DNA of 64,000 nt, from NCBI GenBank assembly GCA_020630335.1, contig JAHDBN010000010.1:1-64000 (forward strand), read 5' to 3'. Source of the stretch: Bacteriovoracaceae bacterium (GTDB lineage: Bacteria > Bdellovibrionota > Bacteriovoracia > Bacteriovoracales > Bacteriovoracaceae). Shown here in pieces: positions 6,973 to 58,219 of this stretch; the first letter of the stretch is position 1, and every line of letters begins with the position of its first letter. The notes under the pieces are model-generated. The model was not told where the DNA came from, did no database searches, and was given only the letters and a program-made list of their open reading frames with translations. The position numbers were made by a program, and so were the translations under genes.

Positions 6973-7764
6973 TTATTCTACTTTTAATTCTTTAGATCTT
7001 CTGTAAGCGGCTTGAACAGCTAGTTTACTTGTCTCGAATAGTCCTCTGTCTTCAAATACCTTGAGGGCCTCATGAGTCATCCCACCTTTAGAAGTCACAC
7101 TTTTTCTGAGATCTTCTAATGAGGTATTCTTATTAAGCCAAAGATCTACAGAACCTTTACACAAAGTTTTAATGAATTTATCTATCTCTAGCTTTTCCAT
7201 ATTCTTTTTTTCAAGAACATCTACCAAACTTTCAAAAAAATAATATAGAAGAGCAGGGCCACTACCACTCACTCCGGTGAGTTGGTCTAATTCATCGTCA
7301 TTTTTTGTTTTATAATTATACCCAACACTAGAGAAGATTCTTTCAAAAACCTTCAGATCTAATTTATTAGAGTGAGTATAAAGATTTATGCTTTCTCCAA
7401 CCTCTGCACATATACTTGGCATTATTCTTAAAATAGAGTTTTCTGGGAAATCATTACCTAATATCTCAGTATCTATTCCTGCGAGAACGGACCAGATTTG
7501 CTTGCCCGCAGGGATAATCTTTTTGTATTCCAAAACAGCTTCAGAGTAATTTTGAGGTTTAAAGCCAAAGAGAAAAATATCACAGTCTCTTAAATCTTGA
7601 AAGTTTTCTACAGCTTTCCCCTTGATCTCTTTTGCTAGCTTTTCAGCTCTGTAGTGAGTTGGAGTGTAAGTTAATATTTCAAAGTTATAATCTGGGTTCT
7701 TTTGATAAAAACCTTTAAAGATAGCACTAACTAAATTCCCACAACCAAGAAGTGCTATTTTCAT
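6973..7764 (-). CDS. proC: Pyrroline-5-carboxylate reductase
   Basis: Catalyses the last step of proline synthesis, NAD(P)H-dependent reduction of 1-pyrroline-5-carboxylate, in the cytoplasm. The N-terminal Rossmann motif is GCGNLVSAIFKG. The C-terminal dimerisation/active-site signature reads VSGSGPALLYYFFESL, followed by TSKGGMTHEAL. The length of 263 residues is normal for ProC. The ATG at 7764 overlaps the TGA of the upstream CheA-like gene (TGATG), which argues for translational coupling. An in-frame TTG one codon upstream is less likely. The pairing of proline synthesis with a signalling protein is unusual. Confidence 0.93.
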   Translation of the reverse strand: MKIALLGCGNLVSAIFKGFYQKNPDYNFEILTYTPTHYRAEKLAKEIKGKAVENFQDLRDCDIFLFGFKPQNYSEAVLEYKKIIPAGKQIWSVLAGIDTEILGNDFPENSILRIMPSICAEVGESINLYTHSNKLDLKVFERIFSSVGYNYKTKNDDELDQLTGVSGSGPALLYYFFESLVDVLEKKNMEKLEIDKFIKTLCKGSVDLWLNKNTSLEDLRKSVTSKGGMTHEALKVFEDRGLFETSKLAVQAAYRRSKELKVE

Positions 7765-8573
7765 CAAGCCGCTTCTTGCTGTCTGTGAATACGCGGAAGG
7801 ACTATAGAAATTTTTGTTCCACGCCCTATATTGTTTTGGATATCAATAGATCCATTGTATTCAAGAAGTTGCCACTCTACTAATCTCAAACCAACTTTTC
7901 TTCCTGATAGCATAGTATTTTCAGGAAGCCTCGCCTTTAAATTAATTCCACATCCATCATCTTTGATCAGTATAGATATTTCTCGAGAGGTATTCTTTAA
8001 TTGAAAAAATATTTTACCTTTAGCTGATTTTCCTAGATTAATTCTTTCAGCTTCTGTCTCTATACCATGATCTAAGGCATTAATTAACAACGGATTAACT
8101 ATATCTTTTAACACACCTATTTCTTTTGCATTCAAATCAAGAGAGTCAGAATCTATAATAAATGTAACTTTTTTCTTAGAAACCTTTGATATATTATTCA
8201 CAAAAACTTTTAGATAATCTGGGAAATTTTCAGAGCTTATACTTAAATTATTTTTCACCAACTGATTGATCGTAAAGAACTTTCTTTTAAACTCATCTAA
8301 CCCGACTTTCTTGCCAGCTTGCAACTCTAAAATTTGCTCTTCAAAAAGATGAAGCTTACTTGCTAGAAATGAATTATCAGTTCCCAGACTTAAGCCTTTG
8401 ATGGAATGAATTACATAAAACAACTCATCTATATTTTTCAAGCTGAAGTTGTTATACAGGTTCTCTAATTTAAATGAATACTCGCAATACTCTTTTAAGG
8501 TTGTCATATTACCTATATCGTCTAAGTGGCACTCAGCCATAATCTTTAGTTTAGATGAGGAAAATCTCTCCAC
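7764..8573 (-). CDS. Compact CheA-like histidine kinase (HPt plus HATPase)
   Basis: 269 residues, GTG start; an internal ATG at 8540 is an alternative. Residues 50-60 contain the HPt phosphorylation signature HSIKG with His56. An ATPase domain of CheA type follows: N box INALDHGIETEAER (Asn165) and G1 box KDDGCGIN (residues 204-211), ending in GRGTKISIVLPR. It lacks a CheW-like P5 domain, a CheY-binding P2 domain and a recognisable long dimerisation helix pair, so it is much shorter than CheA (about 650 residues). It probably acts as a soluble phosphotransfer kinase or ATP-binding signalling module; its partner is unknown. It is translationally coupled to proC. Confidence 0.8.
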   Translation of the reverse strand: MERFSSSKLKIMAECHLDDIGNMTTLKEYCEYSFKLENLYNNFSLKNIDELFYVIHSIKGLSLGTDNSFLASKLHLFEEQILELQAGKKVGLDEFKRKFFTINQLVKNNLSISSENFPDYLKVFVNNISKVSKKKVTFIIDSDSLDLNAKEIGVLKDIVNPLLINALDHGIETEAERINLGKSAKGKIFFQLKNTSREISILIKDDGCGINLKARLPENTMLSGRKVGLRLVEWQLLEYNGSIDIQNNIGRGTKISIVLPRIHRQQEAA

Positions 8574-8648: not shown

Positions 8649-11600
8649 TTATCTTACTTGTTTTACGTTATAATTAATTTTAGCTTCACCAATTATTTCA
8701 TTATTAATATTAAATGCTTCTACTTCATCAGCAGAGAATTCTGGAGTTGATATGTATCCTATATTTATAAAAACTTTATCAGCATTTATAAATTCTAGAA
8801 TCTGACTTTGATCCAATTCAATATTCACATTTAGGTTATTCGTGAAAGTCACCTTCTGACCTTCTCCTTGATAATTTAAAACATCTACTCTATCAATGTC
8901 ATCAGAATAAATGATTTTATCGTCAGCTTTTATCTCAACACTTAACTTTTCATTCAAAGTTAGTGAGAAATTAGAAACATCTGTTGATTGAACCTCACGA
9001 TTAATATCAGCTACTAATATAACATTTAAATTCTCTATCGATTCATTTGAATTTAATTCGATAGGTTCAAAAGTAGTATTATAACTTCCACTCATTTCAT
9101 CTACAGAATTACTCGTATCAAAATCTCCAAAAAATTGCATTCCAAGGCCTTTAGAATCCGCTATTTCATAAAAACTTTCAGTGACACCTGGTTGATAGAC
9201 ATGAGGACATCCAGGCACAGATGTATATAGAATCGTCTTTCCCTCGTACTGAGCATCCACTATCTTTTTTTGATCATCACATGAAATATTATTATATCTT
9301 AAATCAAAATATGAATAATTTTCTTTATCTAATATTGAGATATTATTCATATTTACATTTCTCATGATAAAACTTGCCAATTTTGGAAATGTAGAAAAAT
9401 TAATATCATTAAAAGATGAAATATCTGTATTTGTAATATCAAGATAACTCAAATTTTCTAATGCTTCTAAACTATCTAGCCCTGTCCCTGTTGTGCTTAG
9501 AGCATAAATCACACTAAGTCCTGAGATTCCAGATAATGGAGTTAGTGACTCCAAGTTATTATAAGAAACATTTACTCTATAAAGATTAGGATAAAGAACT
9601 ATTCCTGAAATATCTGTTATACCTGCAGACTGTACATAAAGCGTTCGCAAAGTGCTATGGGTAACCTCTGGTTGGATATCATAAATTAAATTCGCATTAA
9701 AATTTAAAGTCTGTAAAGCAGGAAGTTTTAGTACATAAAGAAAATCACTTCGGTTAAATCCATTATTACTTGCAGTCAAAGAGATTAAAGAAGGAATATT
9801 CACAATCTCACTTAAATTCTCTAAACTATTTTGACTAATACTTAAGGTCTTAATATCTATCCCTGCAAGTGATTTCAAACTCGTAAGTCTTGTTCTTCCT
9901 ATCTGAACATTATTATAAGTTATATCTGTTCTCAGTTTAAAGCTTGGAGCAGGATCATTTATACAATTATAAAGATCTAAACTCTTCAAACGAGGTATGA
10001 GTGAGAAATATGAATAGTTTGAAATTTCACAATTTCTAAATTTAAAACTCTCTAGGTTTGTTAGATCTTTTAGCAAAAACACATCAGAAACTTCAGTACT
10101 ACTCATCTGCAAAGTAATCAGGGTTGAAAGTTTATGAATATGACTTAAATTAGAAAGATTAGTACTGTTCAAGTAAAGTGTTTGTATCTTCCCTAGAGAG
10201 CTTAAAAAAGAAAAATCATCTATGTTATTTGAATTTAAATCAAGTAACTTAAGATTTGCTAAATGTTTAAGAAAAGAGATGTCTCTAGTCTTTGTATTAC
10301 CAATATATAAATGAGTTAGGTTGGGTGCGTATTCAATACCCTGAAAGGTCGTTATTTCTTTATTTCTAACATCTATACTCGTTAATTTCTCCATTGCCTC
10401 AGGAGTAATATTCCCTACTCTGATCCCTGTTGCATTTCGAACAGCTAATCTCAGGTTAGGATCAGGAATGATAACACCTTGGATATCTCGGTACCTCCAG
10501 ATGTATTCAACAATAAAGTTTCCTTTTATTCCAAGAGTTCCCTGTATTTTTTCATTTGTATCCCATTCTAAGAAATCATATGCTTTAAATATTAACTCCC
10601 CTGTTCCCTCTCCTAAAAAACTTGAAAAACTAGAACTAGGTATTTTATAAACTCCCTTTAATGTTTTACTATCTGTAAAACTACTCTCAACAAAACTCGC
10701 ACTTACGTAATTTTTTTCTAAATCTACAATTTCTTTGGAAACATCTTTAATCGAAAAGCTACTCTCTCTAGCAAGATTAATACTCCCTGATGTTGTTATA
10801 TTTAAGTTTTTACTTGATTCAAAATAAAGATTAATTCCTTGAAGCTCTTTCTTCCCGTTCTCATCATTGAAAAGTGGGAAAATAATTTTTTTCTCATAGC
10901 TTAACTCTAACTCATTTTTTCCTTCCTCTGACTCAATATCCTCTTCATCATCTATTGGATCAATTACAACTTCAGTATTTTCTTGCTCATCTTCTTCTTC
11001 TTCCTCACAAGGAATTGAGAAGCTAATAACTTTATCACCCGTAGGCCCATTCTCACTAGAGTATGAAATTTCGACTTTATACTCACCGCAGGCCATCTCT
11101 TTAGACTCAACACACACATGGTATGGAGATCTCAGATAATCTCCAATTTCTTGAAAAGCTTCTGGCATTTCCTTGAAATCACTAAGTGCCCTGTAACTAC
11201 CTCCCGTTTCATTGGATAAGTCAGATAATCCATTCGCATCAACGTCACCTCCCACTCCTATTGTGAAAATCGGAATTTTCCGCTCGTTACTTCTCAGTAA
11301 TTTCAGATCATCAAGAGTCGTATCTATTTTATCACCTGGAAATTCTTCAAGTGAGTATTCCTCATATTTTTGTTCTCTCGAATTATTCTCATATCCATCA
11401 GTCATAACAATTATAGCTTTACGCTCGACATTGCATGCTGGATCTGATTCACCTTCCCAAGACACTTTATCCTCCAGACTCTCATGACCTAGACGGATAC
11501 CATCGTAGAGAGCCGTCCAGCCGTCCTTGTTAATCATTTTTTTCATATTTTCTTTAAATAATGTCTTGCTATCAGTAAGAGGTGTGATGATTTGAGAGTT

Positions 11601-12044
11601 AGTATGAACTTCTGTTAAAGAAAAAGTACTCCCAGACTTTGCAACTTCATCTAGCAAAGCATCTACTCCACTTTCGATAATTAATCGATGACTTCTAATA
11701 GATCCCGAATTGTCTAAAACAATACCAACTTTTGACGGTTTATTCTCTTGGCATTCTACAGAAATATCTCCAGAGTCTTCTTGCAGTTGATTATTGAAAT
11801 ATTTTTTGATTGTAAAATTAATCCCTGTGCTATCACACCCTAAAGGTGTTCCATCATCTGCAACAGGCATAATATCAAAACCAACTTGAAATTCATCATA
11901 AGCAAAATGCTGTAGTTGAATTTCATTATAATTCTCGAACGAATCTCTATGCTTTTCTGTTTCCACATTTTTCTTATTTTCTTCAGCACTTTTAGATTTA
12001 GAACAAGATACAAATAACACAATTACTAAAATTAAATATTTCAT
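8649..12044 (-). CDS. vWA plus leucine-rich-repeat surface lipoprotein
   Basis: 1131 residues. The lipobox Cys14 (LFVSC) predicts a lipid-anchored envelope protein. Residues about 100-310 form a von Willebrand factor A domain with the MIDAS motif DNSGS, a conserved WTALYDGI segment and VMTDGYENN, which usually bind divalent metal and protein ligands. An acidic linker (EEEEEDEQ) follows. From about residue 525 an internalin-type LRR array begins with IPDPNLRLAVRNATGI and continues with repeats such as LTHLYIGNTKTRDISFLKHL. The C-terminal 150 residues look beta-rich. A role in adhesion to prey or matrix is inferred from the domains and from the shared control with the pilus operon. AAGGAAGGGG precedes the ATG, and a sigma-54 promoter and a palindromic operator lie upstream. 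Confidence 0.88.
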   Translation of the reverse strand: MKYLILVIVLFVSCSKSKSAEENKKNVETEKHRDSFENYNEIQLQHFAYDEFQVGFDIMPVADDGTPLGCDSTGINFTIKKYFNNQLQEDSGDISVECQENKPSKVGIVLDNSGSIRSHRLIIESGVDALLDEVAKSGSTFSLTEVHTNSQIITPLTDSKTLFKENMKKMINKDGWTALYDGIRLGHESLEDKVSWEGESDPACNVERKAIIVMTDGYENNSREQKYEEYSLEEFPGDKIDTTLDDLKLLRSNERKIPIFTIGVGGDVDANGLSDLSNETGGSYRALSDFKEMPEAFQEIGDYLRSPYHVCVESKEMACGEYKVEISYSSENGPTGDKVISFSIPCEEEEEDEQENTEVVIDPIDDEEDIESEEGKNELELSYEKKIIFPLFNDENGKKELQGINLYFESSKNLNITTSGSINLARESSFSIKDVSKEIVDLEKNYVSASFVESSFTDSKTLKGVYKIPSSSFSSFLGEGTGELIFKAYDFLEWDTNEKIQGTLGIKGNFIVEYIWRYRDIQGVIIPDPNLRLAVRNATGIRVGNITPEAMEKLTSIDVRNKEITTFQGIEYAPNLTHLYIGNTKTRDISFLKHLANLKLLDLNSNNIDDFSFLSSLGKIQTLYLNSTNLSNLSHIHKLSTLITLQMSSTEVSDVFLLKDLTNLESFKFRNCEISNYSYFSLIPRLKSLDLYNCINDPAPSFKLRTDITYNNVQIGRTRLTSLKSLAGIDIKTLSISQNSLENLSEIVNIPSLISLTASNNGFNRSDFLYVLKLPALQTLNFNANLIYDIQPEVTHSTLRTLYVQSAGITDISGIVLYPNLYRVNVSYNNLESLTPLSGISGLSVIYALSTTGTGLDSLEALENLSYLDITNTDISSFNDINFSTFPKLASFIMRNVNMNNISILDKENYSYFDLRYNNISCDDQKKIVDAQYEGKTILYTSVPGCPHVYQPGVTESFYEIADSKGLGMQFFGDFDTSNSVDEMSGSYNTTFEPIELNSNESIENLNVILVADINREVQSTDVSNFSLTLNEKLSVEIKADDKIIYSDDIDRVDVLNYQGEGQKVTFTNNLNVNIELDQSQILEFINADKVFINIGYISTPEFSADEVEAFNINNEIIGEAKINYNVKQVR

Positions 12045-12072: not shown

Positions 12073-12088
12073 AGCAAGATCTTGGCCA
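12073..12088 (-). promoter_or_regulatory. Sigma-54 promoter of the vWA/LRR gene
   Basis: On the minus strand the sequence is TGGCCA-AGATC-TTGCT, with GG and GC ten bases apart as required for a -24/-12 element. It places the transcript start about 17 nt upstream of the ATG at 12044. The same architecture precedes the pilin gene. Confidence 0.8.
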
Positions 12089-12148
12089 TGTTTTAAAGTT
12101 TATAAACGATTGATTTTACTTGTTTTTTTTATGATGAAGAATGCTGAC

Positions 12149-12165
12149 TGTTTCATTGTGAAACA
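12149..12165. promoter_or_regulatory. Palindromic activator site TGTTTC-N5-GAAACA
   Basis: A perfect 17-bp dyad, TGTTTCATTGTGAAACA, about 60 bp upstream of the -24 box of the vWA/LRR promoter. Near-identical half-sites lie upstream of the pilin promoter beside the NtrC-type regulator gene, so it is probably that regulator's enhancer site. Confidence 0.7.
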
Positions 12166-12175
12166 TAGTGGTTCA

Positions 12176-13045
12176 TTACATTTCAGATGTAATGTTTACT
12201 CTAATAACATCTAGATATTCACCGGCGGGCAACTTATCAACATTTTGATTGATTTCAAACTTAAGGCCAACTTTATCACCTTGCTTAGAACTTATCTCAG
12301 AATTTGAATAAATACTCTGAGGGCTAGAGTTTAACTGTCCTCCAAGATGTTGATTAACATAATACTGATAACTGATTTTTTCTCCTAGGCCTTCATGCTT
12401 TAGAAAACCATTGTTTTCGCTTTGAATAGAAACTGAGTGGCCTAGATTGGAAATCATTAGTACATCAAACTCTACGAAACTTCCTTTCTCTATACGATTA
12501 AATTTCAATGATTCCCCAACCCTCAAAGAACTTCCTTTTTGTAAAAGTTCTAGGCTAATTTCTGGAGGAATTTCAAGATTGAAGTTAATCTGTATGACAT
12601 CTAAAACTTTTTCTCCATTTAAAACTTCAATTCTCTCTGAATAAATGTATTTCCCAGACTCAAAGAAAGCATTGCCTAGAAGATCATTAACTCGTAAAAA
12701 CAACTCCAATGAATGACTAAATTGAGAGACAGGGAAATTAATAATCATTTGCTCGCTACTGCTACCAAGTAAGAAATCTTGTGTACCAGATGGATCAAGA
12801 AAAATAGAAAATGGTATCATTTTGTTTTTAAGAACTAGGTTGCGAGAAGAAAAGCTTAGTTCGTTTTTAACACTTAAGTTATTACATGTATCTGTAGTAT
12901 TACTTCGTTTCAAGTTCAAAACGATTTTTTGATAACTTTGGTTTTTATCTAATTTTATATTCACACTGTTTTGTTGCCAGCTAACACTACAATTTGAATA
13001 ACCAATCCTAACGAAGAATAATATGCCCAAGATCCAAAACTTCAT
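12176..13045 (-). CDS. Putative minor pilin/tip subunit of the chaperone-usher pilus
   Basis: 289 residues with a signal peptide ending near YSNC. Two beta-rich halves are visible: residues about 18-165, and 165-289 starting at PPEISLELLQKGS and ending in PAGEYLDVIRVNI. The ending resembles the final strand of pilin-like and spore-coat-U-like domains. A two-domain subunit at the end of a chaperone-usher operon is typically the tip adhesin, which is the inferred role. I chose the ATG at 13045 because AAGGAG lies exactly 6 nt upstream; an ATG at 13051 directly abuts it. The gene overlaps the usher gene by 38 bp. Confidence 0.65.
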   Translation of the reverse strand: MKFWILGILFFVRIGYSNCSVSWQQNSVNIKLDKNQSYQKIVLNLKRSNTTDTCNNLSVKNELSFSSRNLVLKNKMIPFSIFLDPSGTQDFLLGSSSEQMIINFPVSQFSHSLELFLRVNDLLGNAFFESGKYIYSERIEVLNGEKVLDVIQINFNLEIPPEISLELLQKGSSLRVGESLKFNRIEKGSFVEFDVLMISNLGHSVSIQSENNGFLKHEGLGEKISYQYYVNQHLGGQLNSSPQSIYSNSEISSKQGDKVGLKFEINQNVDKLPAGEYLDVIRVNITSEM

Positions 13046-15371
13046 CTCCATCTCCTTTTATTTTAATACTTTTTTCTGGTGCATAGTCTCCAAAATCTAA
13101 AATGTAATCACCATCACCAAGCCCTTCAATCAAGACCTCTCCTGTTTCATCACAAAATGCTTGAGTTAGACTTTTTCTATTTTCATCTAATACATCTACC
13201 ACCACATTGGTTAGACTTTTTTCTTTATAAGAGAACTTTGCTTTAATATAAAACTTACTTTTCCTTGATATTTTAATAACATTCCCAGACTTATAACTAG
13301 GCACAATAAATGTTGAGTCATTCTCAACCTCTTCTCCAGGTTTAATATCAAAATTATTGATTTCAAAATTATTCCCAACATATGGAGTAAGGTTACCAAT
13401 CGCTATAGGTAGGCCTCCTAATTTTGCCTGATAGTTTCCTTCTTCATCTGCATTCATTTTTACTCTTCTTGATTTTTCAAACTCATTCAACTCAAAAATA
13501 CTAAAACTTCCAAAGATTGGTCGCGAGAGAGCAAACTTACCATCGACCATTACCAATGCATGCCCAATATTAAGCTGATTTTTAAATTTCTCAGTATCTG
13601 AATCCCACTGAGTATCAGATCGGGCGGTAAAATAAGGATTGTCATAATTCCCACTCAAGCTTAAATTCTCTCTATCATTACTTTTTACGTAGCCAAGATC
13701 AACACCATAACCAGGTAGACTGCTAACTGACTCATATCCAGCGTTAAGCGAGTGATCTCCATTCGAGTGCAAAGTTCCATTCAGTTCTATAGGTTTTTTA
13801 TCATTAATATAATCAAAACTAAGCGATAAAGTATAATCCTCATCGTTGTTAAATCTTTCTTTGATAAAACTTAAACTAGAAGTCCAATTTTTAGAAAAGC
13901 GCTTTCCAACTTTGAGTTGAATTTTTTCTTGCTCTCCTATCCCCCACTTTCTCCCGTAATTAAGACTAACATTCCACTGATTTTCAATTCGAAACTGAGC
14001 ATTCGCATCGAACGTCCACATATCTGATACATTCGGAGAAAAATTATACTTAGGTGAAAAATCTTTAGATTCATGTGATAAGTTTACAGAAATTCCTCCA
14101 AGCCCAAGGTTTGATTTATTGTGATATTGATAATACCAACCTAGATCAACTGCATACCCTCGTTTACTCGATTTTCTCAATGAACTTAAACCAGTAGCAA
14201 GACTCATATTCCCTAAGATACTTGCATAGCGTCCTTCTAAACCAATTAAAGAAAAATTATCACTAAAGTTTAATTGATTAAACAAACTTAGATTTTGGCC
14301 TATACCATACCCAAAGTTTGAAGAAAAATTTTTAGTATTGTGAAATTTATTTTTGAAATCTCTTCCTAAAGAAAGTTCATCATCAAAATAACTGATCTGG
14401 AAATCACTATATCCTTTACGAAGCAATGAATAGTCATAAGCTTCTCCAAACTCTAAAGTTTCAACTTGCCCGTCTAGATATCTTATTTTAAGTTCTATTT
14501 TACTTACACCTCGTGGTAAAGAAAAGCCTGATATAATATGCTCTCCTGCTGGATATGATTTTTTTTGATAAATTCTTTTATTAATAAAAATGCTTACCCA
14601 GGCGGGGCGATCTAAAAAGAAAGAATACTCATTGTTTTTTCTAGTTTTAAGTTCAGGTCGAAGAGACTGTTCTTTTATTATAGAAATCCCTCCTCCCTTT
14701 AATCCCTCCATAACTCCTGATCGAGAATGAATAATATCTCCACCTTGAATACGTAGCGAAGGCCTTCTTAAGTCTTTTACCAAGGTTACTTTTTCAAACG
14801 AAAACCGCTCGTTAGCTTTTCTCGAATACTCTCCCTCTAAAACAATATCTGAGATATTCAGCCCAAAATCACCATGATAATCAAGATCATTTGTTGACTG
14901 ATTATAGTTATAAAAATGGTTAGTAAATAGTGACCATGATTTATTAGTATTCACTTCTAAGAAGTTTTGATCTGAAAAGTTATCAAAACTTCTTAATCTC
15001 TGTTTTGCTTTTGGTATAATGAAAAGTGCAAGACGTTCATGATTTAGCTCATAATCAAGAGAATACTTCTTTAAATCTTCAATTTTTATTTTCTCATATT
15101 CATCTAAGAAGACTAATGCCTCATTTTTAAAATACTTTCCCAGGATTTCTTTAAATATCACTGTATCTTCAATTAAATGATCTCCTGATTGAATAGTTAG
15201 ATTTATTTCTTTAAGTTTTTTCCCATCGATGAAAACTCCATATAGAGCATTCTCACTTGTTAGTTTTTCACCGAAAGCTTCAAGGTAAAGAGATTCTTCA
15301 TCAAGGAATGGTTCTTCACTTTTTAACTCCATACTAGCTAGGAATAAAAAAATGAAGAACACATAATTCAT
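13008..15371 (-). CDS. Outer-membrane usher of a chaperone-usher pilus
   Basis: 787 residues with a signal peptide. The usher forms the outer-membrane pore that catalyses pilin polymerisation. An N-terminal region (about 20-130) precedes a long beta-barrel. The segment YPAGEHIISGFSLPRGVSKI resembles the plug-proximal YPAG...LP.G motif of ushers in the alternative (CFA/I-Coo/alpha-like) and archaic branches. Alternating aromatic/polar strands continue to about 640, and a C-terminal carboxypeptidase-like beta domain (VVVDVLDENRKSLTQAFCDETG) follows. The length is slightly shorter than classical FimD (about 850). The gene lies 5 bp after the chaperone gene. The exact usher clade is uncertain. 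Confidence 0.85.
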   Translation of the reverse strand: MNYVFFIFLFLASMELKSEEPFLDEESLYLEAFGEKLTSENALYGVFIDGKKLKEINLTIQSGDHLIEDTVIFKEILGKYFKNEALVFLDEYEKIKIEDLKKYSLDYELNHERLALFIIPKAKQRLRSFDNFSDQNFLEVNTNKSWSLFTNHFYNYNQSTNDLDYHGDFGLNISDIVLEGEYSRKANERFSFEKVTLVKDLRRPSLRIQGGDIIHSRSGVMEGLKGGGISIIKEQSLRPELKTRKNNEYSFFLDRPAWVSIFINKRIYQKKSYPAGEHIISGFSLPRGVSKIELKIRYLDGQVETLEFGEAYDYSLLRKGYSDFQISYFDDELSLGRDFKNKFHNTKNFSSNFGYGIGQNLSLFNQLNFSDNFSLIGLEGRYASILGNMSLATGLSSLRKSSKRGYAVDLGWYYQYHNKSNLGLGGISVNLSHESKDFSPKYNFSPNVSDMWTFDANAQFRIENQWNVSLNYGRKWGIGEQEKIQLKVGKRFSKNWTSSLSFIKERFNNDEDYTLSLSFDYINDKKPIELNGTLHSNGDHSLNAGYESVSSLPGYGVDLGYVKSNDRENLSLSGNYDNPYFTARSDTQWDSDTEKFKNQLNIGHALVMVDGKFALSRPIFGSFSIFELNEFEKSRRVKMNADEEGNYQAKLGGLPIAIGNLTPYVGNNFEINNFDIKPGEEVENDSTFIVPSYKSGNVIKISRKSKFYIKAKFSYKEKSLTNVVVDVLDENRKSLTQAFCDETGEVLIEGLGDGDYILDFGDYAPEKSIKIKGDGDEVLDLGHIILR

Positions 15372-15376
15372 TTAAG

Positions 15377-16099
15377 TTATATTTGGATTTCAATGTTACT
15401 AGAACTTATATTTTTACTACTAAACTCCCTTGGTAACTCTACAACAAACTCTCTTTGTGAGTTTGCAAGGATACTATAAAGATATATTCCCCTCATCTCA
15501 TTTTTTAATAATTTACGAGAAACTCCATTTACCTTAATCCTTACGATTAAATCGCTTAGTAAATGATGCTTATTGCCTGAGTTATCCATTTTCACTATTA
15601 GTCTTCCATTTTCAATTTTACTAGAAACTACTTTTACTTTTGATTTAAATTTTTCAGAAGCAACATAAACAGAAGCTATATACCTTGAAACGATTTGCAT
15701 TTTTCCACCATTAATTTTCTTCTTAGAAAAATTTAATGGCACTTGTTCTACTACTAATCTAAACGATCTTTCCAAATCCTTAATTTCCCCACCTTTCCAA
15801 ACAATTTTAATATCTTTTTTGTGAGATTTTCCTGATTTTTTAGGAAACAAAATTGCCTTCTTAGGATACACCTGAAAAAGTTCTTCTGCTGGCTTCCCAT
15901 ACTTCTTACGATCTTCTTCTTTTCTATACTCAATTCTAACTTTAATTGCTTCTGGAAGCTCAGTCGAGTTGATGGCCGTAAAATTGAATACTGATTGATT
16001 TCCTGAAGGAGCTAAGTATCCGGCCATTGGTGTTAATCTTAAAGCGTAAATATTAAATGAACTAAAAATTAAAATACTTAAAAAAATTATTGATTTCAT
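15377..16099 (-). CDS. Periplasmic pilus chaperone
   Basis: 240 residues with a signal peptide ending near IYA. It has the two-domain immunoglobulin layout of PapD-like chaperones. The first domain carries VYPKKAILFPKKSGKS, the G1-type donor-strand region with alternating hydrophobics, and FRLVVEQVPL. The second domain includes RLIVKMDNSGNKHHLLSDL, corresponding to the N.G..H.....L motif of the family. It should bind pilin subunits in the periplasm and deliver them to the usher encoded just downstream. AAGGAG precedes the ATG. An intercistronic stem-loop separates it from the pilin gene. Confidence 0.85.
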   Translation of the reverse strand: MKSIIFLSILIFSSFNIYALRLTPMAGYLAPSGNQSVFNFTAINSTELPEAIKVRIEYRKEEDRKKYGKPAEELFQVYPKKAILFPKKSGKSHKKDIKIVWKGGEIKDLERSFRLVVEQVPLNFSKKKINGGKMQIVSRYIASVYVASEKFKSKVKVVSSKIENGRLIVKMDNSGNKHHLLSDLIVRIKVNGVSRKLLKNEMRGIYLYSILANSQREFVVELPREFSSKNISSSNIEIQI

Positions 16100-16117
16100 T
16101 TTGATTCTCCTTTTTTA

Positions 16118-16152
16118 TTAACCAAGGTAGAGCTAAACTCTACCTTGGTTAA
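16118..16152 (-). promoter_or_regulatory. Intercistronic stem-loop between pilin and chaperone genes
   Basis: TTAACCAAGGTAGAG and CTCTACCTTGGTTAA pair perfectly over 15 bp with a 5-nt loop, 10 bp after the pilin stop. No U-tract follows, so it looks like an mRNA-stabilising or partial-attenuation stem that would raise pilin over chaperone and usher. Such stems are known after major pilin genes in other pilus operons. Confidence 0.8.
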
Positions 16153-16162
16153 TCAAGTTTTC

Positions 16163-16669
16163 TTACTTCCCTTCTCCTGGAAGTGAACAAGATAAGTAAA
16201 CTACATCTTCATACGTACCGGCTGCTTTTGTTGAATCTCCTGAAAGAGTAATGTCTAGAGCTCCTTTCATCGAACCGTGACTACTTCTTCCATCTAACTT
16301 CTCATACACATTAGGCTGAATCATACTAATTGTTGAGTTGTCGTTCCCTTCACTCGCTACATACTTTAAAGCATAATCAAAGATTTGAGTAGAATCACTA
16401 TTATGTACAACTTTGGCTCCTTGTCCTGATGCAATTTGGATTTCTAATCCACTTGGATCATTCCCGTAAGCAACCATGTTGGCCACAACACTTCTACTTT
16501 CTCCATTAGCTAAGTCTAATGCAGTTGCCTTTGCAGTTGGCTGTACATCAATCTCGCAAAAGCTTTCTAGTTTTCCTCGTAAGATAAAACTATCAGTAGT
16601 TGCTCCTAGTGTACTTACTGAATACATAATTGCTAATGTTAACATTCCTAAAGTCTTTGTTCCTTTCAT
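16163..16669 (-). CDS. Major pilin subunit, chaperone-usher type
   Basis: 168 residues; the signal peptide cleaves near STLGA. The mature protein starts with the beta-strand ATTDSFILRGKLESFCEIDV, a plausible donor strand followed by the first cysteine. It ends in GTYEDVVYLSCSLP with the second cysteine, the disulfide and end-strand arrangement of small pilins in the spore-coat-U/archaic and alternative families. It is first in the operon, is followed by a stable stem-loop and has a strong GGGGA ribosome site, as expected for the most abundant subunit. Transcription should start at the sigma-54 element about 50 bp upstream. Identity as pilin depends strongly on context. Confidence 0.8.
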   Translation of the reverse strand: MKGTKTLGMLTLAIMYSVSTLGATTDSFILRGKLESFCEIDVQPTAKATALDLANGESRSVVANMVAYGNDPSGLEIQIASGQGAKVVHNSDSTQIFDYALKYVASEGNDNSTISMIQPNVYEKLDGRSSHGSMKGALDITLSGDSTKAAGTYEDVVYLSCSLPGEGK

Positions 16670-16719
16670 TCTTTTCCCCTTTTGGTTATCACCCTTTATT
16701 GAGTGTTACCATCAAGTAA

Positions 16720-16735
16720 AGCAAGACCAATGCCA
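16720..16735 (-). promoter_or_regulatory. Sigma-54 promoter of the pilus operon
   Basis: The minus strand reads TGGCAT-TGGTC-TTGCT, very close to the -24/-12 consensus TGGCAC-N5-TTGCA with the invariant GG-N10-GC. It lies 51 bp from the pilin start, next to a divergent sigma-54-dependent activator gene. Confidence 0.88.
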
Positions 16736-16776
16736 ACCTTAAGCTACTGAAATTAAAAGAAATTTTTCAAATACTT

Positions 16777-16823
16777 TGTTCCGAAAAGAAACAGTGTTTC
16801 ATTTTTGATATAATAGAAACACT
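16777..16823. promoter_or_regulatory. Activator sites in the divergent pilin/regulator region
   Basis: TGTTCC-GAAAA-GAAACA (16777-16793) is a one-mismatch copy of the 17-bp dyad at 12149-12165. Next to it AGTGTTTC (16793-16800) and GAAACACT (16816-16823) form a perfect 8-bp inverted repeat around a TATAAT box. The block sits 42-88 bp upstream of the pilin -24 element, a suitable enhancer distance. Confidence 0.7.
16809..16814 (+). promoter_or_regulatory. Likely -10 box of the NtrC-type regulator gene
   Basis: TATAAT lies 36 bp upstream of the GTG start, inside the spacer of the GTGTTTC/GAAACAC inverted repeat. Binding there would cover the promoter, which suggests negative autoregulation. 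No good -35 hexamer is visible. Confidence 0.6.
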
Positions 16824-16849
16824 AATTAACTCTTCGAGAGGAGCATTCG

Positions 16850-18166
16850 GTGGACACTATATTAATCTGTGAAGATGACTTATATCTCGCGAATATTGTA
16901 GAGAAAGCAATTTCTCAAAAATTAAATTTAAGGAGTTCTAAAACTCATACTTATGAAGATGCAAAAAAACTAAATGAAGACTTCTCTATCATTCTTCTTG
17001 ATATCAACTTACCTGATGGAAACGGAAAAGAACTCGTAACTCACTTTAAAAAGACGCTTCCAAATTCAAAGATTATTATGATGTCAGCAGAGAAATCCTC
17101 AGCTCAAATCATTGAGTGTATGAAGTTAGGCGCACATAACTATATACCTAAGCCTTTTAAACTAGCAGAGATCACTTCCGCTGTAGAAGAATGCCTTAGT
17201 AAAGATAGTCAACTCTCAAGTCACTCTTCAACGAAATTTGAGATAAAAAGTAAAAGTGAGAAGGTTCTTTACGCATATAGTGTTATCGATAAAGTTAAAG
17301 ACAAAAACATTAATATCCATATTCAAGGTGAAAGTGGTACAGGAAAAGAAATTTTCACCAAAGCTCTTGCCTTGAAGAGTAATAAAAAAGTGGTCAGTGT
17401 TAATTGCCCTGCTATTCCTTCTAATTTAGCTGAGTCAGAACTTTTCGGTCATATAAAAGGATCTTTCACGGGTGCCGATTCTGATAGAACAGGAAAGTTC
17501 GAAGAAGCAAATGGTGGAATTCTCTTTTTAGATGAAATTGCTGATTTATCTTTAGAGATACAATCTAAAATTTTGAGAGTGCTTCAAGAAAGAGAAATTG
17601 AAAAACTGGGATCTAATAAAAAAATTCCTCTTGATGTTCAACTAGTCTCTGCAAGCAGTAAGAATCTAAAAAAAGAAATTGATGAAGGCAACTTTAGATT
17701 AGATTTATTTTATCGATTAGCTGATATCGAAGTAGAATTACCCTCTTTAAAAGATAGGACTGAAGATATCGAGTATCTTTGCTCTGAATTTCTAAAAGAG
17801 TTTTCATTGGAGTTTTCCGAGCCAACTAAAACTCTAACTCAAAAAGCTCTTAACATACTTAAAAAATACACCTGGCCAGGAAACATAAGAGAGTTAAGAA
17901 GCATTATTAGAAGAGTAGCAATATTATCTGATGGCCAAGTTATCGATGAGGATAATATCCCAGAACACTTGACACAAAACAAGACAAAAGAAGCAAGGCC
18001 TGAAGTAAGTTCTAGGAGTTTAGCAGGAAAAGAAAAAGACTTAATCATAGAAGTTCTCAGTAAAAACAATCAAAACATGTCGGCTTCCGCTAAGGAACTT
18101 GGTATCGGTAGAACAACACTTTACAGAAAATTAAAAAAATATGGAATCAACTCAGATGAAAACTAA
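16850..18166 (+). CDS. NtrC-family sigma-54-dependent response regulator
   Basis: 438 residues. The receiver domain (1-118) carries the acidic pocket CEDD, phosphoacceptor Asp51 (LLDINLPDG) and Lys101. The AAA+ domain (about 135-365) has Walker A GESGTGKE (160-167), the sigma-54 contact loop GSFTGA (204-209, a Ser variant of GAFTGA) and Walker B GGILFLDEI. A Fis-type helix-turn-helix closes the protein (ASAKELGIGRTTLYRKLKKY). It should activate -24/-12 promoters on phosphorylation; the two found here, for the pilus operon and the vWA/LRR gene, are the obvious targets. The GTG start is fixed by GAGAGGAG six bases upstream. The mini-kinase-like gene overlaps its end. Confidence 0.93.
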   Translation: MDTILICEDDLYLANIVEKAISQKLNLRSSKTHTYEDAKKLNEDFSIILLDINLPDGNGKELVTHFKKTLPNSKIIMMSAEKSSAQIIECMKLGAHNYIPKPFKLAEITSAVEECLSKDSQLSSHSSTKFEIKSKSEKVLYAYSVIDKVKDKNINIHIQGESGTGKEIFTKALALKSNKKVVSVNCPAIPSNLAESELFGHIKGSFTGADSDRTGKFEEANGGILFLDEIADLSLEIQSKILRVLQEREIEKLGSNKKIPLDVQLVSASSKNLKKEIDEGNFRLDLFYRLADIEVELPSLKDRTEDIEYLCSEFLKEFSLEFSEPTKTLTQKALNILKKYTWPGNIRELRSIIRRVAILSDGQVIDEDNIPEHLTQNKTKEARPEVSSRSLAGKEKDLIIEVLSKNNQNMSASAKELGIGRTTLYRKLKKYGINSDEN

Positions 18167-52309: not shown

Positions 52310-55300
52310 CTATCTATTAGCATTCCATAACGCACAATCAGGAAATCCTGTTGGACACCTAAGAGCTGGTAACCTTCCTGGGAGTGCTTCCCAGACTGTA
52401 GTAAAGTCCCATGTAGTATATACAGGATGAGTACTTAAATAGAAATTTGAAAGCGTCGCCTCTGGTGCTGCAAATTCTGGTGTTGTTGTAGGATGAGATC
52501 CATCACATGGTGATCCGACACAAGTTGCTCCAGAATAATAATATGAATCAGTAAGAGTTCCTGATGGGTCCATTGAATGAGTCCCCATAAAATAATCCGA
52601 AGTCACACAATCGACATCACCAACAGAAAAGACATTATCAAAATTATAAGTTTGCAGAGGCTGAACATTTGCAACAAACCCACCACATCGATTACCAGTA
52701 ACAGCTTTAAGATTAGAAATAGTATAAGAATTAGAAATACTATATGTCTGAGTAGTTGTTCCAGTCCCTGCAATAAAGCCTGCACTATGAGTTTCTACGC
52801 CAGTAAGAGTACCCACTCTATTTACATTTGTAACCAAAGAATAACTATCTGTTATTATATTATTACCTCCATTTTCAGTCATGCCTGCAAATCCTCCAAT
52901 TTTCCCTGCTCCTTCAACTAAAGAACCTGCTGAGAAGCTTTCTCGAATTTCAAAAGAATTCCCTCCAAACCTTGCAACAAAACCACCGGCATTTCCATTA
53001 GGATTTCTGACTGAACCTAATGCAAAATTTTTCTCAAATATAATATGATTTGGAGCTGAGTTAGCTGATCTAATTGATCCAACAAATCCTCCTGATCCAA
53101 CTGCACTCCTATTTGCATTACTAAGAACATCACCTGTTACATAGTTGTTCTTGATTAATGTAGGAAATGTCTGAGTTGATGCTATTGCCATTGCTCCCAT
53201 GAAACCTCCAGCTCCTCCATTCCCTGTCCCTGTACTATTTGATTCGACATTACCTGTTGCAAAACAGTTCTCTATAGTTATGCCTCTGTAAGCTCCTCCT
53301 ATAAAACCACCTGCGCTTGCAGCAGAAGCTTCTGTATAAACATCACCTGTTGCGTGAGTATTTTTTATATACGCATTCGCATTAGTCAAATTAATTGAAC
53401 CAATTGCTCCTCCAACGTTTCCAGCCTTCCCATCTACATCTGCATGAGTTTCAGAACTTTCTATCTGAACACCTTTAATCATGTATCCTACTAATCCCCC
53501 AATCATTCCACTCGCTATATCTGCAGTTGGCAAACTTAGTGCATCTACTTTAGAAGAAGATAGAACTTTAACTCCAATTAATTTTGCATTATCTTCCATA
53601 TAACCTGCTGCACCACCACATCTAGTTTTTAAGCAGGTCACAGTTCCTAAAACTTCTGAATTCGAAATAGATGAATTATCACTCATCTTTCCAGCCAAGC
53701 CACCTGTCTGAGTACCATGACCTACAGTGTTTCCACTTGATTTAACGAATTCAAGAAATGAGTTATCAAGTAAAGCACCCACAAAACCACCACAGCTACC
53801 GAAACAATTAACATCACCCTGAGACTCCGTATCACCTAAGCTACTCCCAGATGCCTTAGAGCTATCATTCATTATACCTACTGCCCCACCTATAGTTGAT
53901 GAACTATTAGTAAACCCATCAACATCAATATCAAAAACCAGATCAATTAATTCAGATGTATTATCCATAGCCCCAATTAGGCCACCACACTCAGAAGAAC
54001 CGCAAACAACTGGAGTAGTAATTGTTAAACTGATTGCTCCAGCACTAGCTGCTTGTATTTTTGCAGAATTTTTCATGTATCCAACAAGCCCACCTGTCTT
54101 CTTAGCTGTATTACTAACTGTACCTGTATAAACTATATTATCGAGAACCACAGAATTCGCCATAATTCCAAAAGCTCCACCACATTGATCATGTGTACAA
54201 GTCACTGTAAGTGCTGTTCCGTTAACTTGATCTAGTGTGGCGTCATCAAAGTTTCCAATAATACCACCAGTATTTAACCCACCAGAGACAACACCTGAAT
54301 TGCTTATTTCTATGCTCTGAAGATCTGCTCCTCCTGTTGCTTTGCTCGCTAACACTCCACAATCAGCTGCCCCACAGGTTACTGCATAATTATCAATCGT
54401 AAGATCATAAACCTTACCACCAGCGATTTCAGTAAACACACCTGTATCATCAGCTCCGTTATAAATCTTTTTATTGTTTCCGTTGAAGTCCCCTGTGAAT
54501 GAACCAATACCAGTGTCATTTCCGATTGAGCTCATATCAATGTCATTACAAAGAATATAAAACTTATCCATTGGTCCATTCTGAGCTAGATCTTCAAGTT
54601 GAGTTTCGTTATAAATCTCCCAAGCAGTTGCCGTTGCTAGACCGTCACCAAAATCATCATACTTAGTCGCACTCGGCCCTGTCGCATCTACACATTGCTT
54701 CGCTTCTCCTGAAACTTTTGCTGTATCATTTGTTACTCCATCAGAACAAGTTGCCGTATAAGCAAGATCCCAAACCCCAAGAGCCGTCGGTGTAATCACT
54801 ACGTTTGGTAGAGTCCCCGTAAATGTACAGTTAGTACATGCTCCAGCTGTATAAGTTATAGGAGCGCAAGATGAATCTGTATCATTAGTTGAAACGTCTA
54901 TACTTGAAAGTGCAACACCTGGCGCACTATCCGTTTGAGGATCGTCTACTGCATCTATACTTGCAGCTGTTCCAAAAACTTTTGCATTATCTGTAGTCGA
55001 ACCATCAGAACAAGTTGCTGTATAAGCAAGATCCCAAGCTCCTGCAGCTGCAGGTGTAATAACCACGCTTGGCAATGAACCTGTAAATGTACAGTTTGTA
55101 CAAGTTCCTGTTGTATATGTAATGGGAGCACACGCATTTGATGTATCATTACTTGATACATCAATGCTTGCTAATGCCACACCTGCTTCACTAACGCTTA
55201 CCTCATCATCCACAGCATTAATTTCAACAGCACTTACTGCATTACCAAAAAGTTTACCACTATCGGCAGTTGATCCATTCGCACAAGTTGCAGTGTAAGG

Positions 55301-58219
55301 CACTTCCCATGCCCCTGGATTAGTTGGAGTAACTATAACACTTGGTAAAGTTCCACTCACAGTCGCATTAACGAGAGTTCCCAAAGTATAAGTGATAGGA
55401 GTACAACTTGAACTCGTTACCAAAAGACTTAAATCTTCTGCTCCAAGTGCTATACCTTCTGTCGATGGATCAATCTCTTTATCAGGAGAATCTACTTCCG
55501 CTGCTGTTCCAGTAACATCTGCCGTATCCGAAGTTGAGCCATTAGCACAAGTTGCAGTATAGGTTAGCTTCCAAGCTCCAGCAGCTGTAGGAATAATATT
55601 ATAACTTGGACCAGTTCCTGAAAAAGTACAATTCAGCACACAGTTTGCACTGTAAGTAATTGGTGCACAGTTTGAACTCGAATCGGCCGTTCCAGTTGAA
55701 CCTGCTGCAGTATCTACATTTACTATTGAGGTCACTGCCGGCTCACTTACAGTAACAGGGTTATCATTAGCTGTTATATCCGCTGCCGTTCCTAAAACTT
55801 TCGCATTGCTTGTTGTTGTTCCATCTGAACAAGTTGCTGCATAAGCAAGGTTCCAAGTTCCTGCAGCTGTTGGAGTAATATCTACACTAGGCAGAGAACC
55901 TGTAAAAGTACAATTAGTACAAGCTCCTGCAGTATAAGTAATAGGTGTACAATTTGTATTACCATCATTTAAAGATACATTTACGGTAGGAACAACAACC
56001 CCTGCTTCACTAGCACTCACTGGATCATCTGTAGCTGTAATTGCTGGAATAGCAAGTGCTGTTCCTATTACACTTGCAGTGTCTGAAGTCGATCCGTCAG
56101 AACAAGTTGCTTTATAAGTAAAACTCCAAGCTCCTGCTGCTGTTGGAGTAATATCATAATTAGGTGCACTTGGATTAGCTACTGCTGTACAGTTCGTACA
56201 TGCCACTTGAGAATATACAATTGGTGCACAAAAAGAATCCGTATCGTTTCCTGATACATCTATTGCATTTACTGATCCTGCTTGTGAACTTGCTACACTA
56301 TCATCCATAGCATCTATCTCTACTGGTAAAACATTTTCACTATCCGTTGCAAGTTGCCCACTTGGGTCTACTAAATCAGCTGAGCATGTCCAAGGACCTG
56401 AGCCTGCAAAAGTTACTGAAGGTACTGTAAAGCTTCCTCCACTACAAGTTACTGGTGCACTAGGTCCAGCTCCGCAATCAACTGTAATGCTAGATCCCTC
56501 TGGAGAGCACGCTCCACTTGTAGGGTGATTACCCGCTGCTGATACTGCTGGTATATCTAAATCAACACTAGGATTATTCATCCCTGTAATGTCACTATCT
56601 GTATCTACTAATCCACTTGGTGCTACTAAGGTAGCTGTACAAGTTGCTGGCACTGAAGAAATCACTGTGCTAGCTCCACTATAAACTCCACCACTACAAG
56701 TTACTGCTGCACTTGGACCTGCTCCACAATCAAGTGTCACACTTGATCCATCCGGAGAACACGTTCCGCTTAAAAAATGAGTCCCTGGAGTTGTAATTGT
56801 ACTTATATCATCAATTGTTACCTCTGGGTTTCCATCAACAGGTGCTGCTGTTGATTCTGTATCCGAGTCACTTAAACCAGTTGCTGAATCAGTTACTACT
56901 GAAACACAACTAGCTGGAAGAGATGCTATGTTTACACTTGCAAGACTAAAAGATCCACCAGAACACGTCCCACTCACTGGGCCTGATCCACAATCAACAC
57001 TTACAGCCGCTCCATCTGGTGAACAAGACCCGCTCATTGAATGAGACCCTGGAGTCGTTATTGAGATTATTGGATCTAAATTTATCTCTGGAAGAGGAAT
57101 TAAATCCGTTGAATCAGTTGCTTGATTTGAATCTTGATCTATTAAATTTGCCGAGCACGTTGCAGGCAATGTTGATACATTTACTGAAACTACTGAATAA
57201 CTTCCTCCGCTACAAATCACAGGCGCACTTACCCCTGAACCGCAATCAACCGTTACACTTGATCCATCTGGTGAACATGACCCAGTCATAGGATAACTAC
57301 CTGGAATGTAAACTTCAGGATCATCGATACTAACCTCTGGAAGAGAGATAGCAGTAATATCGCTATCTGAATCAGTTTGTCCGTTAGGAGCAACTAAGCT
57401 TGCTGTACAAGTTGCTGGTATAGAAGAAATTGTTGTATTCGCTCCGCTATAAACTCCGCCACTACAAGTAACTGGAGCACTAGCTCCTGCTCCACAATCA
57501 ACAGTAATACTTGATCCATCTGGGGAACAACTTCCACTCATTGGATAAGTTCCAGGAGCAGTAATTGAACTTATATCATTTAAAGTCACCACTGGATTTA
57601 CTCCTGATGGAGTTGACTCTGTATCTGTATCACTTAAACCAGTTGATGAATCAGTAATTATCGAATGACAACTAGCGGGCAAACTAGGCACTCCAACTAC
57701 AGGTATATTGAATATTCCTGAACTACAAGCAACTGGAGATGTAGGACCTGACCCACAATCAACACTCACCAATGCTCCATCTGGTGCACATGAACCTACC
57801 ATTGGATGATTACCGGTAGTTGAAATTGAATCAACCGGATCTAGATCAACAAAAGGAGTAACTAAAGGGTTCGAGCTTTCTGTATCTCCGGCAACCGGAG
57901 TCCCTCCAGAGCTTAGAGTTGTCACACAAACAGCTGGGCAAAGAGTTGGGAAAGGAACGTTAGGCACCATGAAGGATCCAGAATTACAAGTTGTACTTAC
58001 CGGACCAGCTCCACAATCAACTTCAATGTCTGCTCCACCTGTACATGTTCCTGATAAGTTATGAGTAACACCTGAACCACAATTTAAACTTGAAATAGAG
58101 TCAAGATTTACATTGGGTGCTACTGACGAAGAGGAATCAAACAAATAAGCATTGTCATTATCCGCACAAGAGACAAAAAATAAAACTACTAATAAAACTA
58201 CTGATTTAAAAAACTGCAT
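52310..58219 (-). CDS. Giant repeat lipoprotein with GLUG-type C-terminal repeats
   Basis: 1969 residues. Lipobox Cys18 (FFVSC). Residues about 30-640 carry seven or eight repeats with SGSCSPDGSSVTVDCGAGPS and an alternating SLPATC. About 640-1180 hold six repeats of about 90 residues (CAPITY...CTNCTFTGSLP...ITPTAAGAW.LAYTATCSDGST.D.AKV.GTA). From about 1200 a different region starts (AWEIYNETQLEDLAQNG), followed by some twenty 20-25-residue GLUG-type repeats (TGGLVGYM, GGFVGAL, GGAIGSI), which usually fold as a beta-helix. It shares both N-terminal repeat types and the start leader with the partial lipoprotein at 1-4063. An adhesin-like function is inferred. Confidence 0.9.
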   Translation of the reverse strand: MQFFKSVVLLVVLFFVSCADNDNAYLFDSSSSVAPNVNLDSISSLNCGSGVTHNLSGTCTGGADIEVDCGAGPVSTTCNSGSFMVPNVPFPTLCPAVCVTTLSSGGTPVAGDTESSNPLVTPFVDLDPVDSISTTGNHPMVGSCAPDGALVSVDCGSGPTSPVACSSGIFNIPVVGVPSLPASCHSIITDSSTGLSDTDTESTPSGVNPVVTLNDISSITAPGTYPMSGSCSPDGSSITVDCGAGASAPVTCSGGVYSGANTTISSIPATCTASLVAPNGQTDSDSDITAISLPEVSIDDPEVYIPGSYPMTGSCSPDGSSVTVDCGSGVSAPVICSGGSYSVVSVNVSTLPATCSANLIDQDSNQATDSTDLIPLPEINLDPIISITTPGSHSMSGSCSPDGAAVSVDCGSGPVSGTCSGGSFSLASVNIASLPASCVSVVTDSATGLSDSDTESTAAPVDGNPEVTIDDISTITTPGTHFLSGTCSPDGSSVTLDCGAGPSAAVTCSGGVYSGASTVISSVPATCTATLVAPSGLVDTDSDITGMNNPSVDLDIPAVSAAGNHPTSGACSPEGSSITVDCGAGPSAPVTCSGGSFTVPSVTFAGSGPWTCSADLVDPSGQLATDSENVLPVEIDAMDDSVASSQAGSVNAIDVSGNDTDSFCAPIVYSQVACTNCTAVANPSAPNYDITPTAAGAWSFTYKATCSDGSTSDTASVIGTALAIPAITATDDPVSASEAGVVVPTVNVSLNDGNTNCTPITYTAGACTNCTFTGSLPSVDITPTAAGTWNLAYAATCSDGTTTSNAKVLGTAADITANDNPVTVSEPAVTSIVNVDTAAGSTGTADSSSNCAPITYSANCVLNCTFSGTGPSYNIIPTAAGAWKLTYTATCANGSTSDTADVTGTAAEVDSPDKEIDPSTEGIALGAEDLSLLVTSSSCTPITYTLGTLVNATVSGTLPSVIVTPTNPGAWEVPYTATCANGSTADSGKLFGNAVSAVEINAVDDEVSVSEAGVALASIDVSSNDTSNACAPITYTTGTCTNCTFTGSLPSVVITPAAAGAWDLAYTATCSDGSTTDNAKVFGTAASIDAVDDPQTDSAPGVALSSIDVSTNDTDSSCAPITYTAGACTNCTFTGTLPNVVITPTALGVWDLAYTATCSDGVTNDTAKVSGEAKQCVDATGPSATKYDDFGDGLATATAWEIYNETQLEDLAQNGPMDKFYILCNDIDMSSIGNDTGIGSFTGDFNGNNKKIYNGADDTGVFTEIAGGKVYDLTIDNYAVTCGAADCGVLASKATGGADLQSIEISNSGVVSGGLNTGGIIGNFDDATLDQVNGTALTVTCTHDQCGGAFGIMANSVVLDNIVYTGTVSNTAKKTGGLVGYMKNSAKIQAASAGAISLTITTPVVCGSSECGGLIGAMDNTSELIDLVFDIDVDGFTNSSSTIGGAVGIMNDSSKASGSSLGDTESQGDVNCFGSCGGFVGALLDNSFLEFVKSSGNTVGHGTQTGGLAGKMSDNSSISNSEVLGTVTCLKTRCGGAAGYMEDNAKLIGVKVLSSSKVDALSLPTADIASGMIGGLVGYMIKGVQIESSETHADVDGKAGNVGGAIGSINLTNANAYIKNTHATGDVYTEASAASAGGFIGGAYRGITIENCFATGNVESNSTGTGNGGAGGFMGAMAIASTQTFPTLIKNNYVTGDVLSNANRSAVGSGGFVGSIRSANSAPNHIIFEKNFALGSVRNPNGNAGGFVARFGGNSFEIRESFSAGSLVEGAGKIGGFAGMTENGGNNIITDSYSLVTNVNRVGTLTGVETHSAGFIAGTGTTTQTYSISNSYTISNLKAVTGNRCGGFVANVQPLQTYNFDNVFSVGDVDCVTSDYFMGTHSMDPSGTLTDSYYYSGATCVGSPCDGSHPTTTPEFAAPEATLSNFYLSTHPVYTTWDFTTVWEALPGRLPALRCPTGFPDCALWNANR

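Follow-up and report, generated by a model that had tools for sequence, protein, structure and literature searches.

Activators of the NtrC family, such as NtrC, PilR, ZraR and FlrC, have a common domain order and a GAFTGA-type loop, and act on -24/-12 promoters from dyads lying upstream of them. Known NtrC sites are built from two 6 bp arms around a 5 bp spacer. Archaic chaperone-usher pili, among them Csu of Acinetobacter and the spore-coat U type, are encoded in the order pilin, chaperone, usher and two-domain tip. In the H-NOX/HnoK/HnoC nitric-oxide circuits of Shewanella and Vibrio, an H-NOX gene and a kinase gene stand beside a DNA-binding response regulator. HnoC is the transcription factor of these circuits and affects biofilm (PMC6335343).

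A gene cluster from a member of the Bacteriovoracaceae can be set beside these systems. It lies in a stretch of 64,000 nucleotides (the window) from a genome of 2.36 Mb in 39 contigs, and its features are collected in Table 1. The regulator of the cluster resembles the NtrC family in its domain order and GAFTGA-type loop, in a 17 bp dyad with a 5 bp spacer upstream of a -24/-12 promoter, in the divergent placement of its gene and in probable autoregulation. It differs in having two apparent targets only, both in one cluster: an operon for a chaperone-usher pilus and a gene for a vWA/LRR lipoprotein. The pilus genes follow the archaic order, but are highly diverged, include a single pilin gene, are followed by the vWA/LRR gene and appear to be under sigma-54 control. 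The mechanism proposed below is standard for NtrC-type activators, and what would be new is the make-up of the regulon, in which a dedicated activator brings together a chaperone-usher pilus and a vWA/LRR lipoprotein restricted to the genus. No title or abstract in the open-access literature, which leaves most subscription journals outside the scope, was found to describe sigma-54-controlled chaperone-usher pili or chaperone-usher pili in Bdellovibrio.

Table 1. Coordinates of the cluster, its predicted control elements and neighbouring or candidate signalling genes (window positions, except where a locus is named)
Feature	Position	Strand	Description
Predicted sigma-54 promoter, vWA/LRR gene	12073-12088	minus	TGGCCA-AGATC-TTGCT (TGGCCAAGATCTTGCT), read from sequence
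Predicted sigma-54 promoter, pilus operon	16720-16735	minus	TGGCAT-TGGTC-TTGCT (TGGCATTGGTCTTGCT), kept in 4/4 species
Operator dyad, vWA/LRR promoter	12149-12165		perfect TGTTTC-N5-GAAACA
Operator dyad, pilin promoter	16777-16793		TGTTTC-N5-GGAACA (minus-strand reading), one mismatch
Extra half-site beside pilin dyad	16795-16800		GAAACA; GRAACA in 4/4 species
Outer half-site beside regulator -10 region	16816-16821		TGTTTC; TGTTYC in 3/4 species
Regulator extended -10	16809-16814	+	TATAAT within TGATATAAT (16806-16814); probable sigma-70 promoter; 3/4 species
NtrC-type response regulator (REC - sigma-54 AAA+ - Fis HTH)	16850-18166	+	438 aa, GTG start; proposed activator
Major pilin-like subunit	16163-16669	minus	168 aa, signal peptide; profile matches pilins of chaperone-usher operons in other genera
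PapD-like periplasmic chaperone	15377-16099	minus	240 aa; weak PapD_N; profile match to orthologue 3.9e-36
Outer-membrane usher	13008-15371	minus	787 aa; profile match to orthologue ∼1e-54
Two-domain pilus tip subunit (SCPU-like)	12176-13051	minus	291 aa; own SCPU match E=0.014, below cut-off
Lipoprotein-like vWA + internalin-like LRR protein, second target	8649-12044	minus	1131 aa; VWA_2, LRR_4/LRR_8
CheA-like protein	7764-8573		269 aa; HSIKGLSLG phosphotransfer-type motif and HATPase_c; no linked partner
H-NOX + hybrid kinase pair	L046:1230-3070; L047:6840-8680; L118:7956-9762; L119:6881-8695		

The initial annotation of the window had described two sigma-54 promoters, a dyad of the form TGTTTC-N5-GAAACA shared between them and an NtrC-type regulator encoded divergently. 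Both promoters are present exactly as described, the dyad is perfect at one of them and carries one mismatch at the other, and the regulator gene is indeed divergent. Both promoters read on the minus strand: TGGCCAAGATCTTGCT closely precedes the start codon of the vWA/LRR gene (12044), and TGGCATTGGTCTTGCT lies upstream of the pilin start (16669) by ∼50 bp. Between the dyad centre and the -24 GG there are 70 bp in the vWA/LRR case and 51 bp in the pilin case, so that relative to the transcript starts expected there the centres fall at about -94 and -75, respectively. When the two upstream regions were shuffled, with any 6 bp arm and any spacer of 3–8 bp allowed, an equally good shared dyad arose in 22 of 4000 trials, so that the window alone is suggestive, short of decisive. 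The remaining doubt about the dyad is removed by its conservation in three more species.

Those species (G066, G067 and G068) make up, with the window's own, all that are available in the genus. The order of the cluster is the same in all four: regulator, divergent from pilin, then chaperone, usher, tip and vWA/LRR. Identity to the window's proteins is 62–69% for the regulator, 71–84% for the pilin, 39–55% for the usher and 43–48% for the vWA/LRR protein, and the upstream DNA has therefore had time to diverge. Much of the flanking DNA has done so, while both promoters and both dyads are retained in every species. From dyad centre to -24 GG, the spacing at the pilin promoter is 51, 51, 51 and 50 bp (own genome, G068, G067 and G066), and at the vWA/LRR promoter 70, 72, 72 and 66 bp in the same order. 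The vWA/LRR dyad is perfect in three species and has one mismatch in the fourth; the promoter that it accompanies keeps its -12 box, CTTGCTTT, throughout and is weaker in G067, where the -24 region reads TGGTAA, off consensus. On this comparative evidence the promoter and dyad elements are real and under clear functional constraint.

Specificity was assessed by pattern searches of whole genomes. The window's own genome contains one perfect dyad and 17 one-mismatch copies, where a control with the pattern reversed gives 8; taken by itself, then, the dyad is neither rare nor specific. Those 18 copies are what could be said for pure coincidence, in which AT-rich DNA would throw up dyads and GG-N10-GC elements side by side by accident. 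The composite of the two elements behaves differently. A strict pattern (TGTTYC-N6-RAACA followed, at 38–68 bp, by GG-N8-TTGC) has exactly two matches in each of the four genomes, and all eight fall at the orthologous pilin and vWA/LRR promoters; the reversed control has none in the same genomes, and the strict pattern reveals no other dyad-plus-promoter target there. A looser version adds a single match, in the genome of one relative, which is probably due to chance. Across the family (129 genomes), the strict pattern has eight scattered matches in the 125 genomes outside the genus, and its reversed control four; this background of ∼0.06 per genome, compared with two per genome in the genus, is at chance level. 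The dyad, then, is not strewn at random without regard to sigma-54 promoters, the outcome against which the initial annotation had asked to be checked, and coincidence, contradicted by the conservation, is scarcely credible as an explanation.

The proteins of the pilus operon in the window all fall below Pfam cut-offs, and the pilin has no Pfam match. Profiles built from the four species nevertheless recover whole chaperone-usher operons from other genera, where the orthologues of usher, chaperone and tip pass the cut-offs for Usher, PapD_N and SCPU, respectively. The predicted fold of the tip subunit matches adhesins and pilins of the CfaB/CfaE, CupB6 and CsuE kind, a likeness that lends support, short of proof, since the confidence of the model is 72. 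The structure prediction for the pilin was of too low confidence to be used, and the usher profile found no match among solved structures. Judged from these profile matches, the operon encodes a divergent pilus of the chaperone-usher type.

In the second target the signal is followed, as in lipoproteins, by C14 and S15, which are invariant in the four species. The predicted metal site (MIDAS) of its vWA domain is intact, as is expected of an adhesin with an integrin-type vWA domain: DNSGS at 111–115 (D111xSxS), T177 and D216 are invariant in all four. Among the family genomes examined, full-length relatives are restricted to the genus, and elsewhere the LRR part alone finds matches. The gene follows the tip gene in the same direction after a gap of ∼130 bp. 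No clear terminator separates the two, so transcripts that begin at the pilin promoter could include it as well. This arrangement, together with the off-consensus promoter of G067, would suit an account in which only the pilus operon is switched and the vWA/LRR gene depends mainly on read-through or another promoter, its dyad and -24/-12 element being relics of a duplicated pilin promoter. Against this, the vWA/LRR dyad has been preserved more closely than the pilin dyad while its surroundings have diverged (most clearly in G066), and the -12 box of the vWA/LRR promoter is retained in every species; this account is very improbable. The claim that one switch governs pili and lipoprotein is supported in part, by the eight composite matches and by the divergent NtrC-type regulator in each cluster, with a qualification: the targets are consecutive and in the same direction, so the second promoter is partly internal to one cluster and does not mark a second, unlinked locus.

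The regulator passes Pfam cut-offs for Response_reg, Sigma54_activat, AAA_lid_14 and HTH_8. It has the acidic pair D9/D10, the invariant phospho-acceptor D51, a GSFTGA sigma-54 contact loop (GAFTGA in two relatives) and the helix-turn-helix motif GIGRTTLYRKLKK; in NCBIfam, no equivalog cut-off was reached among the best 25 matches. Each of the four clusters has an NtrC-type regulator with the full domain set, although the G066 contig ends within its last residues, and each genome has one Sigma54_DBD protein (RpoN). Orthologues of the regulator in other genera (42–46% identity) were considered as members of the same system and rejected, for no pilus operon lies near them and the composite pattern is absent from their genomes; two of them adjoin genes that appear to be of the polysaccharide type.

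Adjacency, co-occurrence and geometry lead us to infer that the dyad belongs to this regulator. About a dozen sigma-54 activators are found per genome (14 Pfam matches in the window's own, the weakest of them doubtful), and one of these, or a repressor, might bind the dyads instead, leaving the neighbouring regulator only to respond or compete. The make-up of the pilin promoter lends this some weight, for a GRAACA-N1-TGTTYC element overlaps the 17 bp dyad there, which makes the array more complex than the site of a simple activator. Set against it are the occurrence of dyad, regulator and targets together in all four species, the absence of the composite pattern elsewhere in their genomes, and a position and geometry that fit an NtrC-type enhancer. 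A different binder is accordingly judged improbable, and the neighbouring regulator is retained as the proposed one.

The same array bears on control of the regulator itself. All four species have GRAACA-N1-TGTTYC-N5-RGAACA on the pilin side, and three have a further TGTTYC 27–29 bp upstream. In eight 120 bp regions, TGTTYC/GRAACA half-sites number 22, where shuffled sequences give a mean of 1.3 and a maximum of 6. Because this operator flanks and overlaps the extended -10 region from which the regulator is probably transcribed, autoregulation is probable: binding on the pilin side probably also controls the regulator's own level.

The cluster is very probably a small, dedicated sigma-54 regulon, in which the divergent regulator acts through the dyads on the pilus operon and the vWA/LRR gene jointly. 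A regulator dimer would bind TGTTYC-N5-RRAACA dyads ∼75 bp (pilin) and ∼94 bp (vWA/LRR) upstream of the start points, and once activated would remodel sigma-54 polymerase at both -24/-12 promoters. The output would be a chaperone-usher pilus and, simultaneously, by way of an internal booster promoter, the vWA/LRR lipoprotein of the outer surface; occupancy of the operator would also set the level of the regulator. The two products are almost certainly turned on together, given that the same promoter type and binding site, conserved in four species, occur nowhere else in the genomes. Counting against the regulon are the 6 bp variation between species in the distance from dyad to vWA/LRR promoter and the weak promoter of G067. 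We infer that the regulator is the binder, that it acts as an oligomer, that phosphorylation and autoregulation are involved and that pilus and lipoprotein serve attachment jointly; a role in attachment to prey is a guess. For a family that has predatory members and has received little study, this offers a testable regulon, made up of a single regulator, a single operator and two surface structures. It also ties the vWA/LRR lipoprotein, which is specific to the genus, to production of the pilus and marks that protein as a candidate partner or adhesin.

The usher is more widespread: of the 129 family genomes 59 have it, and of the 48 genera 20. In 20 clusters from outside the genus (L098–L117), the usher's closest neighbours include no detectable homologue of the regulator or of the vWA/LRR protein. 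TGG[CT]-N7-TTG stands no more than 110 bp upstream of the pilin gene in 12 of these 20 clusters, compared with 14 of 314 other open reading frames at the same loci (Fisher p = 3e-10). Allowing TGG[CT]-N8-TGC adds two clusters, so that 14 of 20 have such an element, 50–84 bp upstream of the pilin gene. In many of them, A, G or T takes the place of the last letter of the usual TTGC; as the -12 GC is then without its C, they are termed only ‘sigma-54-like’. The TGTTYC dyad is found at none of these pilin promoters. TGTCTA/TAGACA is present in 7 of the 14 upstream regions (L099, L105, L106, L107, L109, L114 and L115; 0.8 expected), once as the full TGTCTA-N5-TAGACA dyad; it is a lead only, as the motif was picked after looking, and is possibly a candidate operator of another activator. 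The simplest history is that a sigma-54-type promoter before the pilus operon predates the genus, which appears to have added a dedicated activator, an operator and a second target, the new lipoprotein, to an older sigma-54 pilus operon. This suggests that sigma-54 control is common among the chaperone-usher pili of the Bacteriovoracaceae, and the change of operator between genera would represent a regulatory rewiring that can be traced.

A candidate for the signal input comes from the relatives. Genes for an H-NOX protein and a hybrid histidine kinase directly adjoin the regulator in two of the four species, an arrangement like that of the HnoK/HnoC circuits, and the pair occurs in all four; H-NOX is found in 21 of 129 family genomes. 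Unlike in those circuits, the kinase is a hybrid, and in two species (the window's own and G066) the pair lies away from the regulator. The pair is a candidate sensor, no more. A scheme in which an H-NOX/hybrid-kinase pathway ends in this regulator, with nitric oxide or oxygen sensing switching pilus and vWA/LRR adhesin on or off together, and with an ancestral TGTCTA-type operator swapped for a new one, is conceivable but rather unlikely. The CheA-like gene that follows vWA/LRR in the window was also considered as the source of the cognate kinase and rejected: its orthologues in the three relatives lie elsewhere, unlinked to the cluster, so that the proximity is not conserved. In another part of the window, the minus strand carries its largest open reading frame, of 1969 codons, at 52310-58219.
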